From: Chlorogloeopsis fritschii PCC 6912
GTDB taxonomy: Bacteria; Cyanobacteriota; Cyanobacteriia; Cyanobacteriales; Nostocaceae
Direction: 5' to 3'
Assembly (NCBI RefSeq): GCF_000317285.1
Contig: NZ_AJLN01000085.1
Span: 1-64,000 of the forward strand
Length of the DNA stretch: 64,000 nt
Shown piece by piece: positions 1 through 29,926 of this stretch (positions are counted from its first letter, which is position 1; each line of letters opens with the position of its first letter). The notes under the pieces were generated by a model. That model saw only the letters and a list, made by a program, of their open reading frames with translations. It searched no databases and was not told where the DNA came from. Both the position numbers and the translations under genes were made by a program.

Positions 1-67
1 TTTTCTCGTTTCAAGCGAGAACTTTCCTGTTTCAAGAGAGAACTTTCCTGTTTCAAGTGAGAATTTT
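1..67. repeat. Three tandem copies of a 21-bp unit
   Basis: A 21-bp unit with core GTTTCAAGNGAGAA is repeated at 5-25, 26-46 and 47-67 with no spacer and only a few substitutions. The array may continue to the left of the window. The period is too short and lacks spacers for a CRISPR. Its function is unknown. Confidence 0.75.
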
Positions 68-71
68 GTTC

Positions 72-128
72 GTAGTAAGCGATTTATCGCTCTGCACATG
101 GGTTTTAAGCGGCTCAAGCCCCTACTAC
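72..128. repeat. Short palindromic element with GTAGTA/TACTAC arms
   Basis: Arms at 72-77 and 123-128 are inverted and enclose a smaller hairpin (CGAT/ATCG around 80-89). It resembles the small hairpin repeats scattered between genes of filamentous cyanobacteria. Only one copy is visible here, so calling it a dispersed repeat is inference. Confidence 0.35.
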
Positions 129-219
129 TTCTCTTAAGATACAAGGTTGGGTGCGTTATAGACGTTAGTCCTAACATACCGAAAATTAGGATAGTGCGGC
201 GCTTGGCAACAACACACCC

Positions 220-669
220 TTAAAATTTCAAATCGTCGCCAAGGATTTCGGCAATTGTTCTAGCAACTTGATCGGGATCGATAGGCTTCGTTAAGAAAGC
301 TTGGACACCAACCCGCATCACTTCTTCCTGCACCGAATCGCGCACATCTCCCGAACACACCACAATCGGAGTCAATTGATCGAAAGTACGAATTCTTTCG
401 ATCAACTCAAACCCTGTACCATCCCAGAAATATAAATCTATCAGGTAAAGATTGAACTCCCCACTTTGAGCAATCCGTAAGCCGTCAGTCACGCTCTGCA
501 CCGTCTCGGTCTCATATCCTGCATCGTCTAGAATGAAACTTAACAACTCACAGTTGTCCTGGGAATCATCAATGCAGAGAATTCGTTTTTTGATGGGAAA
601 AACCACAGCTACTTTTTTACCATCCTGCTTTAGATGCTCTTTTGCTCTGGGTAAGATTACCAAGCTCAA
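220..669 (-). CDS. Single-domain response regulator (receiver domain)
   Basis: This is a CheY-like receiver of 149 residues with no output domain. It would accept phosphate from an unidentified histidine kinase and act by protein contact. The receiver begins near residue 28 (KKRILCIDD): acidic pair D34/D35, phosphoacceptor D78 in LIDLY, the conserved Ser/Thr position at S106, and K128-P129. The first 25 residues are not receiver sequence. The open frame starts at TTG 669, but GTG at 606 is a credible alternative start close to the receiver. The gene is divergent from the Crp/Fnr gene at 715 with a short shared promoter region, so the two may be functionally linked. A decayed second copy of its 5' part lies at 1525-1596. 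The family is certain; the partner is unknown. Confidence 0.88.
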   Translation of the reverse strand: MSLVILPRAKEHLKQDGKKVAVVFPIKKRILCIDDSQDNCELLSFILDDAGYETETVQSVTDGLRIAQSGEFNLYLIDLYFWDGTGFELIERIRTFDQLTPIVVCSGDVRDSVQEEVMRVGVQAFLTKPIDPDQVARTIAEILGDDLKF

Positions 670-714
670 GTAATACCTGTCCGTTTTCTAGCAAACGGAC
701 GAAGGAAGAAAATT

Positions 715-1431
715 ATGCTGAATTCCAGCAAGCCTCAGCGATCAAAAAATTTCATTTTGAATTCGCTACCGCAAGATGAATACGATCGCCTACACCCTCA
801 TCTAGAACGAGTTGAGTTACACCAAAACGAAGTTCTCTCCCGGATTAGAGAACCGATCGCTCACGTATATTTTCCAATAACTGTCCTCCTTTCTTTGGTG
901 CATTCGACAATGGAAGGCGAAACTGTTGAAGTTGGAGCCACGGGATTTGAAGGAATGGAAGGAACAATGTTTCTGTTCAATCAAAATTCCGCGCCTTGGC
1001 AAGTTGAAGTGCAGCTTGCAGGCGAGGCATTCAAACTCAGTACCGAAATCTTTGTCAGCGTGTTGCAAAAGTCCGATGTTCTACGGCAAAAAGTCACTGA
1101 TTTTACATATCTAAAGCTGATACAACTAACACAATCTGCACTCTGCAACCGTTTCCATACTGTTGAGCAACGCCTTTGCCGTTGGTTACTCGCAGCCCAA
1201 GATCGCGTCCAAACCCCTGAACTGTTGCTCACACGAGACGTTCTAGCCACGATGATTGGCTCAACTCGTCCTGCCGTTAGCATTGTTACCGGAACTCTCC
1301 AAACAGCGGGATTGATTCGTGCCACTCGCGGTAAAGTCACCATTCTCAACCGTGAAGAAATGGAAGAAGCAACTTGTGAGTGCTACCAAATCATCAAACA
1401 GGAATTTGCTCGATATCTCCAGCAAAACTGA
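715..1431 (+). CDS. Crp/Fnr family transcriptional regulator, copy 1
   Basis: This 238-residue protein has a cyclic-nucleotide-binding-like sensor fold (about 25-125), a dimerisation helix and a winged-helix DNA-binding domain (about 150-215). The HTH lies around residues 173-201 (TRDVLATMIGSTRPAVS). It ends in a C221-E-C223-Y motif shared with the two other Crp/Fnr proteins of this window. Canonical cAMP-contacting residues are not evident, so the ligand is unknown; the CxC pair might sense redox state, which is inference. The ATG at 715 follows a purine-rich AAGGA site. The gene is divergent from the response regulator at 220-669. It aligns without gaps to copy 2 at 1953 at about 85% identity, with residues 180-207 unchanged, so both probably bind the same operator. 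Confidence 0.93.
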   Translation: MLNSSKPQRSKNFILNSLPQDEYDRLHPHLERVELHQNEVLSRIREPIAHVYFPITVLLSLVHSTMEGETVEVGATGFEGMEGTMFLFNQNSAPWQVEVQLAGEAFKLSTEIFVSVLQKSDVLRQKVTDFTYLKLIQLTQSALCNRFHTVEQRLCRWLLAAQDRVQTPELLLTRDVLATMIGSTRPAVSIVTGTLQTAGLIRATRGKVTILNREEMEEATCECYQIIKQEFARYLQQN

Positions 1432-1524
1432 GAGATAATTCCTCTGCTTACACACTTTCTGTGTGCATTTGAATTTATCCCAGGACACTTTTAACTAAGC
1501 ACAACTACTTCACTGCTGAAGAAT

Positions 1525-1596
1525 GTTTTCCTGTGAATCATCGATGCAGAGAATTCGTTTTTTCACAGAAAGAACTATAACCACAGCTACTCTTTT
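1525..1596 (-). pseudogene. Remnant of a second response regulator 5' end
   Basis: This stretch is strongly similar to 555-620, the beginning of the response regulator at 220-669. Read on the minus strand it encodes VKKRILCIDDSQE, the receiver N-terminus, then runs into an in-frame stop within a few codons. The rest of the receiver is missing. It lies between the two Crp copies in the orientation expected if the whole divergent regulator/Crp unit was duplicated and the second regulator then decayed. Confidence 0.75.
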
Positions 1597-1613
1597 AAGT
1601 ATTTTCTACGCTA

Positions 1614-1672
1614 TCCCCTGTCCCCTGTCCCCTATCTCCTGTCCCCTATCTCCTGTCCCCCGTTCCCTATTC
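1614..1672. repeat. Heptamer repeat tract (CCCCTGT/CCCCTAT type)
   Basis: A run of 7-bp units of the form CCCCTRT, interspersed with degenerate units. The same tract appears in either orientation near 4640, 9791, 39494 and 46803. It resembles the STRR class of short tandem repeats of heterocystous cyanobacteria. It lies inside the duplicated regulator region and probably disrupted it. Confidence 0.8.
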
Positions 1673-1952
1673 TCTACTATAAAGCAGCCCCCTCCGTTCG
1701 CTGGAGAACGGACGAAGGAGGCGCACTCATGCAATTTTGGGAAAACTGTACGTTAAGCACATATGCTCATACTGCCAAACTATTACTATGCTGGGGTTGC
1801 AGATGCACAGCTAGCTTCTCCAGTTCCACCAGCTTGCCTAAATGTCTCAGCCTAAAAGTAAAACGGTATAAGGCTTTGGGAGGTGCTCGAAATCTATCTA
1901 AATTTATTAGCGTACAAATTCCCTCCCTTTGGCACGATGATCCAAGAAAATT

Positions 1953-2669
1953 ATGCTAAATTCCAGTGAGACTCAGCGGTCGAAAAATTTCATTCTCAAT
2001 TCGCTACCGCAAGATGAATACGATCGCCTGCATCCTCATTTAGAACGAGTTGATTTGCACCAAAACGATGTTCTCACCCGGATTAGAGAACCGATCGCTT
2101 ATGTCTATTTCCCTACAACTGTCCTTGCTTCCTGGGTATATTCAACGCAAGAAGGCGAAACCGTAGAAGTTGGAATTACTGGATTTGAAGGAGTGGTGGG
2201 AACAACGTTTCTGTTCAATCCAAATTCCGCGCCTTGGCAAGTTGAGGTGCATCTTGCAGGCGAAGCATTTAAACTCAGTACCGAAATCTTTGCCAGGGTG
2301 TTAAACAAGTCTGTCGTTCTACGGCAAAAAGTGACGGCTTTTACTTATCTAAAGCTGATGCAACTGACGCAATCTGCACTCTGTAACCGTTTTCATACCG
2401 TTGAGCAGCGTCTTTGCCGATGGTTGCTTGCAGCCCACGATCGCGTCCAAACCTCCGAACTGTTGCTCACGCGAGACATCCTCGCTTCGATGATTGGCTC
2501 AACTCGTCCCGCCGTTAGCATTGTTACCGGAACCCTCCAAACCGCCGGATTGATTCGTGCCACTCGCGGTAAAATTACTATCGTCAACCGCAAAGAAATG
2601 GAAGAAGTGACTTGTGAGTGCTATCACATCATCAAACATGAATTTGATCGATACTTACAAATTAAATAA
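1953..2669 (+). CDS. Crp/Fnr family transcriptional regulator, copy 2 (tandem paralogue)
   Basis: A 238-residue paralogue of the protein at 715, same length, no gaps, about 36 substitutions by eye. It has the same sensor fold, dimer helix and winged helix, and the same C221-E-C223-Y ending. Substitutions cluster in residues 34-130 (sensor half), whereas 180-207 (recognition helix and wing) are identical. This suggests two sensors reading different cues at the same sites; that is inference. The segment just upstream of ATG (AAGAAAATTATGCT) matches copy 1, but about 240 bp of unrelated sequence separates it from the duplicated GAACGGACGAAGGA box, so its promoter differs. No partner regulator is intact beside it. 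Confidence 0.92.
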   Translation: MLNSSETQRSKNFILNSLPQDEYDRLHPHLERVDLHQNDVLTRIREPIAYVYFPTTVLASWVYSTQEGETVEVGITGFEGVVGTTFLFNPNSAPWQVEVHLAGEAFKLSTEIFARVLNKSVVLRQKVTAFTYLKLMQLTQSALCNRFHTVEQRLCRWLLAAHDRVQTSELLLTRDILASMIGSTRPAVSIVTGTLQTAGLIRATRGKITIVNRKEMEEVTCECYHIIKHEFDRYLQIK

Positions 2670-2681
2670 GAAGCGATCGCA

Positions 2682-2843
2682 ATGAGTTCCGTATACGCGA
2701 TCGCTCCGAGTCACTCCTCAGCTGGAGGAAACATCGATCCAGATTATATTGGTCACTATGGCATTAATGATTGCAGTGGCAGTCCCCTCATACCCGCAAC
2801 CCCTCAAGCCGAGCAAAAAACCACTCCACTTTCTGACGGATAG
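2682..2843 (+). CDS. Possible small protein of 53 residues
   Basis: A short ATG-to-TAG frame, 12 bp after the second Crp/Fnr gene, encoding a Gly/Ser/Pro-rich peptide containing DYIGHYGINDC. There is no clear ribosome binding site and a HIP1 site lies inside the frame. I do not recognise it. It may be a gene fragment or a chance frame. Confidence 0.2.
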   Translation: MSSVYAIAPSHSSAGGNIDPDYIGHYGINDCSGSPLIPATPQAEQKTTPLSDG

Positions 2844-3465
2844 GAACAGCGATCGCCCGTGCTGTGATTAGATAACACAAAAAATCTTTTATATTGCCTA
2901 CCCCCTATAGATAGTTGTTATTAAATTTTTTATCTGTTCAAATATTCAGAGGTCAAAAAGCTTAGGTTAATAGCTGGATGGATAATTGCAAGCGAATAAT
3001 CTACATATAAAAAATGTGCCTGTGAACTTAGATTTACTAAGCAAATCTTCGTTTGAGAGGTAGTATTTGTTGCAATTTCATACTATAACCAGGTATGATA
3101 AATATCTCTAAAGGTAGATTTACCGTTAACTAATTATTTGATGGTAAGAAAAAAGCCCTAGCTTCTACAAGGAAGTCAAGGGCACTAAGTGAATGGATAA
3201 TACATTAGTATACTAAAATATCAAGAGATATATTTAAAATTAAGTTAAGTATTTTAGTTATAAATTAAATATTTAGTTAATTTACTTAAGATTCTAATTG
3301 ACACTAAGCAATTTAGCTTATGCTTGATTGAACAAAGTTTTTTTGTGCATAAAAATTTTTATACAAGCCATACTTTACTTACATAATTTTCAGAAAAGTA
3401 TGACTTGAATATGTAAAAAATAAGTAAAAAATAAATTTTTCAATTACTTTTTAACTAAATTTGAG
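2844..3465. other. AT-rich non-coding region
   Basis: No supported protein gene. The stretch is strongly AT-rich and contains one clear minus-strand terminator (3148-3183). Between that terminator and the ferredoxin-like gene at 3466 lie about 280 bp, enough for a long 3' untranslated region or a small RNA. Confidence 0.5.
3148..3183 (-). terminator. Intrinsic terminator on the minus strand
   Basis: On the minus strand, GCCCT...AGGGC (3179-3183 with 3155-3159), with an inner CTTC/GAAG pairing, is followed directly by a T tract (3154-3148). It sits about 280 bp past the stop codon of the ferredoxin-like gene. Confidence 0.7.
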
Positions 3466-4131
3466 CTAGATAGTAGCTGTGCTTGAAATTGGCATTGCTA
3501 CTTTTCTCACATTCTCTTGCTTCTGGTTCACACTGCTATCAGCAAAATGTTTTTCCATCAATGCAGGAACTTGAGTAGCTTGAATGCGACTGTAACGAGT
3601 TTTATCTGGCATCACTAAATTAGGCCCCGCTTTACAGTTTTTCATACAACCAGTCGCTTTGATCGTCACTTGATCTGCTAAACCGCGATCGCGCAAAGCT
3701 CCTTGTAAAGCCTGACATAGACCATCAGCACCGCGTTTCACGCAATCAGACTTTTGACACACCAAAATCGTCGCTTTTGCTGGTTTTGCCTTAACGTCAG
3801 TAGAAGAGGACGCGGGGAGGCGGGGACACGAAGACGCGGGGAAATTTTCTCTGTTTGCGTCTCGCTGTGCTGCCATTACTTGTTGGGCTTTCAGCTTCAC
3901 TTCGCCTGTTTTGCGATCGTATTTTTTATCACCCATGACTTGCAACCAAGTACCAGGCGGTAAGCGCCAGTCAAACGCCACTCGTAAATGTTTAGCTAGC
4001 TTTACGTAGCATTCACCTTCAGAAGTTGCCAGTAGCAAGCCTTTGAGTTTAAAGCCATCTTTAATAACAAAATCGAGAAATCTTCCCTCAAGACAAAATT
4101 CTGATATTTCGTTGCTATGGGAATTACTCAT
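3466..4131 (-). CDS. (2Fe-2S) ferredoxin domain-containing protein
   Basis: The protein has 221 residues. The C-terminal half (about 119-195) is a thioredoxin-like 2Fe-2S ferredoxin domain: C125 and C130 in LVCQKSDC, then C162 and C166 in GCMKNCKAGP. Such proteins carry one electron in the cytoplasm; partners vary and none is evident. The N-terminal 90 residues form a separate cyanobacterial domain with a basic, OB-like look (KKYDRKTGEVKLKAQQ). Between the halves, residues about 94-112 (FPASSCPRLPASSS) are encoded by a GC-rich intergenic-type repeat (3796-3848), so the linker looks like an in-frame repeat insertion. The ATG at 4131 is clear. The small gene at 4237-4503 is upstream in the same direction, 105 bp away, and may be cotranscribed. 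Confidence 0.88.
   Translation of the reverse strand: MSNSHSNEISEFCLEGRFLDFVIKDGFKLKGLLLATSEGECYVKLAKHLRVAFDWRLPPGTWLQVMGDKKYDRKTGEVKLKAQQVMAAQRDANRENFPASSCPRLPASSSTDVKAKPAKATILVCQKSDCVKRGADGLCQALQGALRDRGLADQVTIKATGCMKNCKAGPNLVMPDKTRYSRIQATQVPALMEKHFADSSVNQKQENVRKVAMPISSTATI
3796..3848. repeat. GC-rich repeat inserted in the ferredoxin-like gene
   Basis: Units of the GACGCGGGGAGGCGGGGACAC type lie inside the coding frame. The complementary words (CGCGTCTCCGTGTC) occur in intergenic DNA near 28455 and 43408. The reading frame is kept. Confidence 0.65.
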
Positions 4132-4236
4132 GTTTATAACCTTCTTTATTAGTTTTTACGAAAACCAGCTATCTGGGAAGGCAGGTTTTTGATGCACAAC
4201 AGCTTCCCATCGGCATTCAAGGCTTTTACCGTTCAA

Positions 4237-4503
4237 CTACTGATAGCGATGCTGCCAACAAAGTTCTAAAGTGCAAATCAATTCTTGACGAGAGAGTGTG
4301 AATTGTCGCATCACACTCCAAACTTGAATAGCTGCAAGAGTATTGTCAATTTGGGCTGTTAATGGCTCGTTAGCCTCACACCAACAAGGAATATCTAGTT
4401 CCTGTAAGCGTTGATAAACTTGCCAGCGCTCTGCCCAATTCACTTCTATAACGTGTTTTTCTTCTAATTTTGAACTGAATGACTTCAAGATTCCTGCCCT
4501 CAA
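4237..4503 (-). CDS. Small protein, probably Asr1405/Asl0597 family
   Basis: A cyanobacteria-type small soluble protein of up to 88 residues. The central segment VIEVNWAERWQVYQRLQELD and the following CWCEANEPL resemble, from memory, the Asr1405/Asl0597 family of heterocystous cyanobacteria, whose biochemical role I do not know. There is no signal peptide or membrane helix. Five of its residues are Cys or His in the second half (CWCE, LCWQH), which could bind a metal; that is inference. The frame opens at TTG 4503 with no ATG before the conserved part, so the start is uncertain. It lies 105 bp upstream of the ferredoxin-like gene on the same strand, suggesting a shared redox job. Confidence 0.7.
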   Translation of the reverse strand: MRAGILKSFSSKLEEKHVIEVNWAERWQVYQRLQELDIPCWCEANEPLTAQIDNTLAAIQVWSVMRQFTLSRQELICTLELCWQHRYQ

Positions 4504-5038
4504 GGTGCTAGAAAGTCGCAGTAAATGGTGTGTTATCGCTTTTTTATGGTTTTTTATTTAGCGGAGTATAGCTCCTTAAATCAGGATAACCCAAGTGCGA
4601 ACTTTTCTCAGTAGTTTTTGAAAAAAAATCTCAAACGCGTGGCTAGGGGCTAGGGGATAGGGGATAGGGGACAGGGGACAGGGGATAGGGGATAGGGGAC
4701 AGGTGATAGGTGATAGGGGACAGGAGACAGGGGACAAGAGATAGGGGAGAGAAACTGATAACTAACACCTAATAACCGCCCATGTCGTTACTCTTATTCC
4801 TGACAAGGAAATCAAGGACTGTATATAGATAAATAGAAAAACTGTTAATGCTGTTAATGAGATATTGATGAAATATTGATGAGATTTATCGTCGTTAACT
4901 CACAAAATTAGAGGTTTTATTACTTCTAAAAAGTCAAACTTTCATCGTATTGCTTGGTCTTGATTTCATTTTTTAAAATGCTAGTATGTAGAGACCAAGC
5001 GGTTAGTAAAGAATAACTGCTTCAAAGCGAGGAGAACC
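4504..5038. other. Intergenic region with heptamer repeats upstream of dps
   Basis: No gene seen. The left half is dominated by the heptamer tract at about 4640-4750. The right half is AT-rich and should hold the divergent promoters for the minus-strand small gene and for dps (AGGAGAA ribosome binding site at about 5029-5036). Confidence 0.6.
4640..4750. repeat. Long heptamer tract (GGGGATA/GGGGACA)n
   Basis: About fifteen consecutive 7-bp units alternate between GGGGATA and GGGGACA with a few GGTGATA or GGAGACA variants. It is the longest such tract in the window and matches the STRR type. Confidence 0.9.
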
Positions 5039-28536: not shown

Positions 28537-29202
28537 ATGAGTGTTACTCCTGATTCTGTAAAGCAATTGCTAAGTTCTGAGGATTTGGGCGATCGCTTGC
28601 GAGCAGTAAATCAAATCCGCCAACTTGAACCAACAATTGGTTTTGAGTTGATACAAAATGCCATTAATGACAGCAATTCTCGCGTGCGATACTCGGCAGT
28701 GAGTCAGTTTGATACATTGGGCGGACAGAATTTAGATTTATCTTTGAATGTGTTGCGCGATCGCTTGCTCAACGATCCGGAACCCGACGTGCAAGCTGCA
28801 GCCGCAGACTGTTTGGGCGCTCTGAAGCTAGATGCAGCTTTTGAAGATTTACAAAACCTTTATCAAACCAGCAATGAATGGATCGTTAAATTCAGTATCA
28901 TTGCGGCTTTGGGAGAGTTGGGCGATCCGCGTTCTTTTGATTTACTTAGACAAGCACTTTCTTCAGATAATGAGTTAGTACAAACTGCTGCTATTAGCTC
29001 CTTTGGAGAATTGGGAAATACACAAGCAATTCCGCTCTTAACTCCCTATGCCAACAATCCAGATTGGCAAGTTCGTTATAGAGTGGTGCAAGCCCTTGCT
29101 AGTTTGGGAGGTGCAGAAGCGAATTCGGTATTGCAAACTCTGGCTAATGATGAAGTAGAAGCTGTTGCGTCTGAAGCGAAGAGAGCTTTGCAATCTAGCT
29201 AA
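28537..29202 (+). CDS. nblB: HEAT-repeat protein, NblB type (phycobilisome degradation)
   Basis: The 221 residues are almost entirely HEAT/PBS-lyase-like repeats of about 30 residues (DSNSRVRYSAVSQFD, DPEPDVQAAAADCLG, NEWIVKFSIIAALGEL, DNELVQTAAISSFGEL, NPDWQVRYRVVQALASLGG). NblB is related to phycocyanobilin lyases and is needed for dismantling phycobilisomes during nutrient stress. The length and the N-terminus (SVKQLLSSEDLGDRLRAVNQIR) fit NblB better than CpcE/CpcF, which also occur next to phycobiliprotein genes, absent here. The ATG follows an AAAGAGAGATAAAA leader. Its 3' end overlaps the end of the convergent Crp/Fnr gene by 8 bp. Confidence 0.82.
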   Translation: MSVTPDSVKQLLSSEDLGDRLRAVNQIRQLEPTIGFELIQNAINDSNSRVRYSAVSQFDTLGGQNLDLSLNVLRDRLLNDPEPDVQAAAADCLGALKLDAAFEDLQNLYQTSNEWIVKFSIIAALGELGDPRSFDLLRQALSSDNELVQTAAISSFGELGNTQAIPLLTPYANNPDWQVRYRVVQALASLGGAEANSVLQTLANDEVEAVASEAKRALQSS

Positions 29203-29926
29203 AAGCTGAATTACCACCCAGCAAGCGCTCGAACTCTCGTTTGACGATTGCATAACACTCACAGGAGGTAGACTCCAAACCTTCTGTGTCAAGAAGAGTC
29301 ATCTTGCCATACTTGTAGCTGATGAACCCTGCTCTCGCGATAGTAGCGGCAACTTCACTCACACTCGCGCGACGCACCCCTAGCATTTGTGCTAGAAACT
29401 CTTGGGTGAGAGGAAATTGATCTGCTCCCACTCGATCGCGAGTCATCAGCATCCACCGACAAAACCGCTGTTCAATCGAGTGCAGGCGGTTGCAAGCAGA
29501 AGATTGAGCGATTAGATTAAATAGCGCTTGCGTGTAGAGTTGCAGCAGTCTGTAAAGCGGGCTACCTGGAGTCACTTCACGTTGAAATACATCCGCCCCC
29601 ATTCTCATCCCTTCACCAGGAATTTGTTGAATAGCCTCACCGGGAATTGAGTTGGCTCCTAAAAATACAGGCAAACCCACCATCCCTTCATTGCCCACCG
29701 TACCCACTTCCACCGCATCCCCACTTTCTACTAAAGAGAGCAGAGAACCGACGCCACTGTTGGGGAAATAGACATATTGGATCGGTTCGTTAGGTGCATA
29801 AAGGATTTGTTTGAAATCTAGAGAGACTAACTCCATGTAAGGCAGGAGGCGTTCGTATTCCTCTGGGGGCAGGGCAGCCAACAGCCGATTTTTAATTGAA
29901 TTACGGGGGTTTTGGGACGCGCACAT
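29195..29926 (-). CDS. Crp/Fnr family transcriptional regulator, third copy
   Basis: This 243-residue regulator has a cNMP-like sensor domain (about 25-130), dimer helix and winged HTH (LTQEFLAQMLGVRRASVSEVAATIARAG). It shares the overall plan with the tandem pair at 715 and 1953, including the FCRWML dimer-helix motif and a CECYAIVKREFERLL ending, but is much more divergent, so it belongs to a broad family rather than the recent duplication. No cAMP-binding signature is evident. It overlaps the end of nblB tail to tail by 8 bp and is divergent from cheB, with a large palindrome in the shared upstream region (30128-30166). Confidence 0.92.
   Translation of the reverse strand: MCASQNPRNSIKNRLLAALPPEEYERLLPYMELVSLDFKQILYAPNEPIQYVYFPNSGVGSLLSLVESGDAVEVGTVGNEGMVGLPVFLGANSIPGEAIQQIPGEGMRMGADVFQREVTPGSPLYRLLQLYTQALFNLIAQSSACNRLHSIEQRFCRWMLMTRDRVGADQFPLTQEFLAQMLGVRRASVSEVAATIARAGFISYKYGKMTLLDTEGLESTSCECYAIVKREFERLLGGNSAFS

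Follow-up and report, generated by a model that had tools for sequence, protein, structure and literature searches.

A tandemly duplicated response regulator–Crp locus in Chlorogloeopsis fritschii PCC 6912 and a conserved inverted repeat as its candidate operator

Introduction

How does a regulatory locus come to hold two nearly identical Crp/Fnr-family genes beside a single intact response regulator (RR), and what might the two regulators bind? The question is raised by the start of contig C84 in the 7.75 Mb genome of Chlorogloeopsis fritschii PCC 6912, of which we analysed a stretch of 64,000 nucleotides (hereafter the window). A first-pass annotation had proposed that a divergent RR–crp unit was duplicated, that one RR was lost afterwards, and that the two Crp proteins bring different inputs to one operator. 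Our best explanation of the whole, which we consider reasonably probable, is a duplicated RR–crp module in which Crp, bound to a 22-bp inverted repeat, would activate the RR gene and control its own. A literature search found no earlier account of the module, its operator or its duplication, and it is on that search that we call the operator new.

Results and discussion

Layout of the locus

From the left, the locus consists of the RR gene on the minus strand, crp1, a gap of 521 bp, and crp2. The RR (220 to about 606) is a single-domain protein, receiver only, divergent from crp1, with a clear receiver match (PF00072, Response_reg, 75.8 bits, E 3.7e-21); its open reading frame spans 220–669 and a GTG at 606, chosen by eye, is the likely start. 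Both crp1 (715–1431) and crp2 (1953–2669) lie on the plus strand and encode proteins of 238 residues. The tandem arrangement at about 85% identity noted in the first pass is borne out, with 202 of 238 residues identical (84.9%) and 85.2% identity in DNA. Read from left to right, the gap contains the broken start of an RR gene, a heptamer array, a second inverted repeat and a stretch whose terminal inverted repeats are degenerate.

Each Crp protein carries a winged helix-turn-helix (HTH) of Crp type (PF13545, HTH_Crp_2, 53.6 bits in Crp1 and 52.7 in Crp2, cut-off 27). The cyclic-nucleotide domain (PF00027, cNMP_binding) scores 25.0 and 19.6 bits, under the Pfam cut-off of 27.5. An AlphaFold model built with 11 sequences, used for overall fold alone at a mean pLDDT of only 61, displays beta-barrel strands in the N-terminal half. 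Neither protein is identified as NtcA, the scores against TIGR03697 being 18.6 and 19.8 bits for a cut-off of 244.95. About 27 kb from the pair, the window encodes a third Crp (29195–29926) that belongs to the same broad family and is 39–40% identical to Crp1. The congeneric genome G001 also has a third Crp, about 18 kb away on the corresponding side of its pair.

An old tandem duplication

The search covered three partly overlapping sets of genomes, one for the order (388), one for the family (217) and one for the class (388). We took as an orthologue any crp match with an E value of 1e-75 or lower, by which 16 whole genomes qualify. Thirteen of these have one crp copy, which is the single-copy form that the first pass had asked to be looked for in relatives. 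Two copies occur in the window's genome, in G001 and in Chroococcus FPU101. Two other genomes of the genus were compared: the orthologous crp is present in G001 and absent from G002. In G001 the order RR, crp, crp is identical, and the same sequence lies past the second crp (synteny judged by eye). This shared tandem pair, set against single copies in 13 of 16 genomes, upholds the proposal that a divergent RR–crp unit was duplicated.

The leaders of crp2 and of the downstream G001 copy align over 287 nt at 78%, the inserted segment described below included, so that duplication and insertion are both most likely older than the split from G001. The two downstream copies are sisters in the protein tree (83/91) and in the DNA tree (96). 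In free trees the upstream G001 copy groups beside single-copy sequences and not with crp1; the AU test does not reject a tree in which the four window and G001 copies are constrained to group (p-AU 0.12). The two window genes have a synonymous divergence (dS) of 0.49, and crp2 and the downstream G001 copy one of 0.44. Segment trees of crp disagree with weak support, and site patterns examined for gene conversion divide into 24 for orthology with G001, 18 for within-genome similarity and 6 for the third pattern.

The two FPU101 units (L053 and L054), each with its own RR, are sisters in the tree (99/97), and this pair is, on the sequences compared, the product of a separate duplication event. 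More distant Crp paralogues likewise stand in tandem pairs at L042, L043, L044 and L045; those at L042, L044 and L045 appear, by eye, near kinase or receiver genes. Tandem duplication seems to be recurrent in this Crp family. The duplication in the window is itself an ordinary, old tandem event with an insertion relic.

That relic is a MITE-like segment (1716–1945, outer limits approximate) with arms at 1740–1756 and 1907–1923, lying in the window and in G001 between the candidate operator and crp2. Its terminal inverted repeats are degenerate in the window (17 nt, 76%) and longer in G001 (23 nt, 87%), while a copy in G009 (L133:1492–1874) has better preserved inverted ends (42 nt, 86%). Partial matches or fragments of the element occur elsewhere in the genomes. 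An open reading frame at 1729–1959, with an 81-codon counterpart at the same place in G001, was considered as a small gene and rejected, as its ends are the inverted repeats and pieces of it recur elsewhere. Neither frame matches a Pfam family, and outside the locus nothing beyond weak matches containing stops turned up, in 2 of 40 genomes.

The response regulator remnant in the second copy

The first pass had reported a broken piece of the RR N-terminus in the gap, and it is there: a stretch of 73 nt (1525–1597) is 79% identical to the start of the RR gene and its leader, with E 2e-14 and 1e-15 in two separate comparisons. Its minus-strand reading, VKKRILCIDDSQENILQQ*, is terminated by a stop and spans 1510–1566 by hand count, so that the remnant as a whole covers 1510–1597. 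The heptamer tract placed in the decayed part is likewise present as an array of TCCCCTG units (1614–1668, 7.9 copies) that occupies what would be the RR promoter region of copy 2. In positions 1–5000 of the window, which were examined for such arrays, two were found, the other having 15 copies (4644–4748). We take these arrays to be akin to the STRR heptamers of heterocystous cyanobacteria, which are head-to-tail 7-bp units; STRR fingerprinting has reportedly been applied to Nostoc. A 21-bp tandem repeat of 2.9 copies also stands at the contig start (8–67).

The history proposed in the first pass was a unit duplication followed by loss of the RR. The duplication and an RR-less second copy stand, but a second RR that was ever whole is not borne out, since the 5' end alone survives. 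No RR codons past about the twentieth were found in the gap of the window or of G001, and no RR 5' end was found in the G001 gap, where the region adjoining the repeat is present. A breakpoint inside the RR gene explains these data equally well, because only the 5' end is left and none of it in G001, and a tandem duplication with such a breakpoint is the simpler reading. Duplication of a complete unit, with later decay of the second RR by deletion at a site marked by the heptamer array, is in our estimate an appreciable but lesser possibility. The remnant does keep a start region and 18 codons ahead of its stop, and FPU101, with two full units, illustrates that whole-unit copies arise. The window and G001 have also kept different upstream parts, the RR 5' end in one and the repeat-adjoining region in the other, so a deletion did occur in the gap. 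Against a complete second RR, the gap of neither genome contains the later codons, and the crp1 stop and the remnant stop are separated by 78 bp. With the breakpoint inside the RR gene, the conserved module, a divergent single-domain RR and a Crp with a sub-threshold cyclic-nucleotide domain, would have been duplicated in tandem before the split from G001. The duplicated unit would have begun within the RR gene and ended with crp, leaving copy 2 as a regulator and candidate operator with no working RR.

A conserved inverted repeat

Between the RR gene and crp1 lies an inverted repeat, GTCCGTTT-TCTAGC-AAACGGAC (679–700), first spotted as one block common to the intergenic regions of relatives and proposed here as a candidate Crp operator. 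A second copy, CTCCGTTC-GCTGGA-GAACGGAC (1692–1713), precedes crp2. The conserved form, GTCnGTTC-N6-GAACnGAC, stands upstream of crp at 16 loci in 15 genomes; with the second copies of the window and G001 (W2 and G001d), which lie outside the 16 loci, there are 18 copies. These counts leave out L049 (contig end 108 bp before crp), L056 (partial crp), L057 and L058 (distant), and L124 and L129 (the same loci as L052 and L055). Allowing 3 mismatches, the repeat was not found at L056, nor at LEGE 11386 in the 108 bp before crp, where the contig ends.

Nine of the 22 positions are invariant in 18 of 18 copies, and mean pairwise identity over the 16 loci is 0.74 in the repeat versus 0.34 and 0.31 in its ungapped flanks. 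Five loci fetched after the pattern had been fixed (L125–L128 and L130) have 0, 2, 2, 1 and 2 mismatches at its 14 fixed positions. Matches with no more than 2 mismatches would be expected at a rate of about 5 in 10,000 in a 178-bp sequence with equal base frequencies, and of about 25 in 10,000 in the 808 bp of L125. In the window, none of 300 shuffles of the intergenic region reaches the eight of eight pairs of the repeat at 679–700. The palindrome score is equalled in 0–2 of 300 shuffles at W1, G001u and L047, in 14–25 at L052, L054, L055 and L128, and in 29, 43 and 77 at W2, G001d and L125, respectively. There is no excess over shuffles at L048, L050, L051, L053, L126, L127 or L130, and at L046 another palindrome scores above the repeat. 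The evidence for an operator is its conservation, not symmetry alone.

The copy-2 repeats of the window and G001 are identical at 21 of 22 positions in a leader that is otherwise 77–78% identical. The binomial probability of this, assuming a background of 77–80%, is 0.02–0.05, a weak sign that the copy-2 repeat may be under selection. Compared with the three nearest outgroups, the copy-1 repeats of both genomes fit better inverted and the copy-2 repeats fit directly, an inversion that should be irrelevant to a DNA operator.

Promoter geometry and the proposed circuit

On the RR strand a TAnnnT box lies 19 nt past the repeat at 12 of the 16 loci, 18 nt at two and 20 nt at one (15 of 16 in total), and L130 has none at 18–20 nt. 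In 2000 trials with the bases of the flanks shuffled, no single distance was shared by more than 5 of 16 loci, although the loci are related, so that the counts are not independent and base shuffles ignore this relatedness. In the window the candidate −10 box of the RR gene is TAATCT (654–659, minus strand), 19 nt from the repeat. Setting the box at −12 to −7 puts the repeat centre at about −42, which by sequence layout is a class II arrangement, with an activator site at the expected distance from the −10 box. Of the 15 loci that have an RR, 13 place its first aligned codon 73–94 nt from the repeat; over the 16 loci the distance from repeat to crp ranges from 8 to 710 nt. Because its distance is constant to the RR gene and not to crp, the repeat belongs primarily to the RR promoter; because the crp leader contains or adjoins it at most loci, crp is probably controlled too. 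On this layout the likeliest role of Crp is to activate the RR gene; it probably also controls crp, the direction of the self-control being a guess.

The −10 region of the RR gene (652–659) reads TAAGATTA, which gives a TAnnnT on the crp strand as well. Over the 16 loci, a crp-strand TAnnnT starting 26 or 27 nt before the repeat occurs 10 times. The promoter is possibly a shared bidirectional one.

The same repeat might instead act as an RNA hairpin in the crp leader, governing translation of crp, a reading to which we give little credence. At 14 of 16 loci the distance from the repeat to the first aligned crp codon is indeed 8–74 nt, the repeat folds in 18 of 18 copies, and W1 has a matching change on both arms. 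However, it is the sequence of the arms that is conserved (the nine invariant positions), pairing is broken at positions 4 and 19 by A/A or T/T in 8 of 18 copies, and the repeat is inverted in copy 1. The spacing also argues against a hairpin, being constant to the RR gene and variable to crp, with the −10 box at a fixed distance on the RR side.

The sequence itself shows the homology of the two copies, their shared position, an inverted repeat retained in each, and the absence of an RR −10 box in copy 2, where neither the window nor G001 has a TAnnnT at 18–20 nt from the repeat. That Crp, rather than another factor, binds the repeat we infer from their linkage. A Crp dimer would bind the 22-bp GTCnGTTC-N6-GAACnGAC and would act as a class II activator of the RR gene from a site centred at about −42; the same site would let Crp control its own gene.

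We then considered how far such a circuit might reach. In the window's own genome, 9 sites match with at most 2 mismatches, of which 2 are at the locus, and a control pattern gives 24, so there is no excess of other sites over the control. Six of the seven off-locus sites lie inside frames of at least 90 codons, and the L082 site has a TAnnnT at 18 nt, yet lies inside a 918-codon frame. The exact motif occurs once each in 5 of the 388 genomes of the order, in two of them at the crp locus, and the control pattern in 17 by the analysis's own count. One exact copy in G062 (L144:1501–1522) has a TAnnnT at 19 nt and lies between frames of 362 and 298 codons on one strand, neither of which resembles an RR or crp. 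This site, which weighs against our reading, is due to chance or to another regulator, because G062 has no crp match in the genome search. The circuit looks local from these counts, but weaker sites may make up a regulon.

In 14 of the 16 genomes crp has an RR homologue as its divergent neighbour. At L051 (Prado102) the repeat and box are present and no RR homologue was found beside crp at the threshold used. At LEGE 11386, where the contig ends, crp has a convergent gene downstream for a hybrid kinase that includes a receiver domain. The phospho-acceptor Asp is retained in the RR of the window and of G001 and is replaced, by eye, in 3 of 12 receiver sequences (L053 and L054 of FPU101, and L125 of G704), which are possible pseudo-receivers. 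Ordinary Asp phosphorylation is therefore probably dispensable at some loci.

Two copies and a possibly shared operator

The same inverted repeat precedes both crp genes, so an operator shared by both Crp proteins is plausible, and both may bind the repeat. The recognition helix of the orthologues has the form xRPxVS and is identical in the two window copies, and both would most likely bind both repeats. The second copy would add regulator dose and possibly heterodimers, with no new specificity.

The first-pass annotation had gone further, reading identity from residue 180 to 207 and divergence in the sensor half as two inputs on one operator. The identity is exact, but the contrast is weaker than claimed: an identical run of at least 28 residues is reached in 26% of shuffles of the 36 Crp1/Crp2 differences (P 0.26), which makes the run unremarkable and rules it out as a signature of selection. 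Two further identical runs are almost as long (residues 8–33 and 137–161). The suggested comparison of the sensor and HTH halves gives a dN/dS for crp1 versus crp2 of 0.22 over residues 1–119 and 0.11 over residues 120–236, and the former value is similar to the 0.25 of crp2 versus its downstream G001 orthologue. Competition of two differently signalled Crp proteins for one operator is unlikely, for although a repeat precedes both genes and the recognition helices agree, the differences spread across both halves (20 in residues 1–119 and 16 in residues 120–238), the sensor half is under purifying selection like the orthologue pair, and nothing but ordinary sequence differences speaks for differing inputs.

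If any copy is abandoning the operator, it would be copy 1 of G001, a candidate because conserved recognition-helix residues are lost. Its helix reads SNLSAVN, without the Arg-Pro kept in 18 of 18 other aligned orthologous sequences. It has 65 private changes in 702 sites compared, versus 29, 22 and 25 in the other three copies. Over residues 180–207 its dN/dS against the other G001 copy is 0.63 (7 non-synonymous and 4 synonymous changes), and crp1 and crp2 each give 0.04 against the downstream G001 copy. A bolder and in our judgement improbable extension of the module is a closed feedback switch, in which a Crp without a recognisable cyclic-nucleotide site, and with essentially one target, would be signalled by contact with the neighbouring receiver, and copy 1 of G001 would tune the other copy as its dimer partner.

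For an uncharacterised subfamily of Crp, these results provide a candidate operator in a class II layout, and they name the neighbouring receiver protein as its candidate target, so that an orphan RR and an orphan Crp become testable as one circuit. Natural variants are at hand: the recognition helix is changed in G001, the Asp is replaced in FPU101 and G704, and the module was duplicated on two separate occasions, once in the window/G001 pair and once in FPU101.

Comparison with known systems

The window proteins resemble CRP in their HTH_Crp_2 domain, in a site with a 6-bp spacer and in the fold of the low-confidence model (Foldseek E down to 6e-10, TM about 0.4–0.5). The recognition helix of CRP is SRETVGR. 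The window subfamily differs from CRP in its xRPxVS helix and in a cNMP_binding match that stays under the Pfam cut-off. Passages of one source place NtcA-activated sites at about −41.5, 22 nt from a TAN3T box (PMC3898017), and passages of another describe CRP-activated promoters of two cyanobacteria with TGTGAN6TCACA about 22 bp from a TAN3T box (PMC2633013); the latter passages contain neither 'response regulator' nor 'GTTC'. The window repeat differs from these sites in sequence, being GTTC-N6-GAAC where theirs are TGTGA-N6-TCACA or GTA-N8-TAC, and in its near confinement to one locus, unlike the large regulons of CRP and NtcA. In geometry it is like the cyanobacterial CRP and NtcA class II promoters, the repeat standing 22 nt from the box when taken as a 5-6-5 core and 23 nt when taken as GTTC-N6-GAAC.
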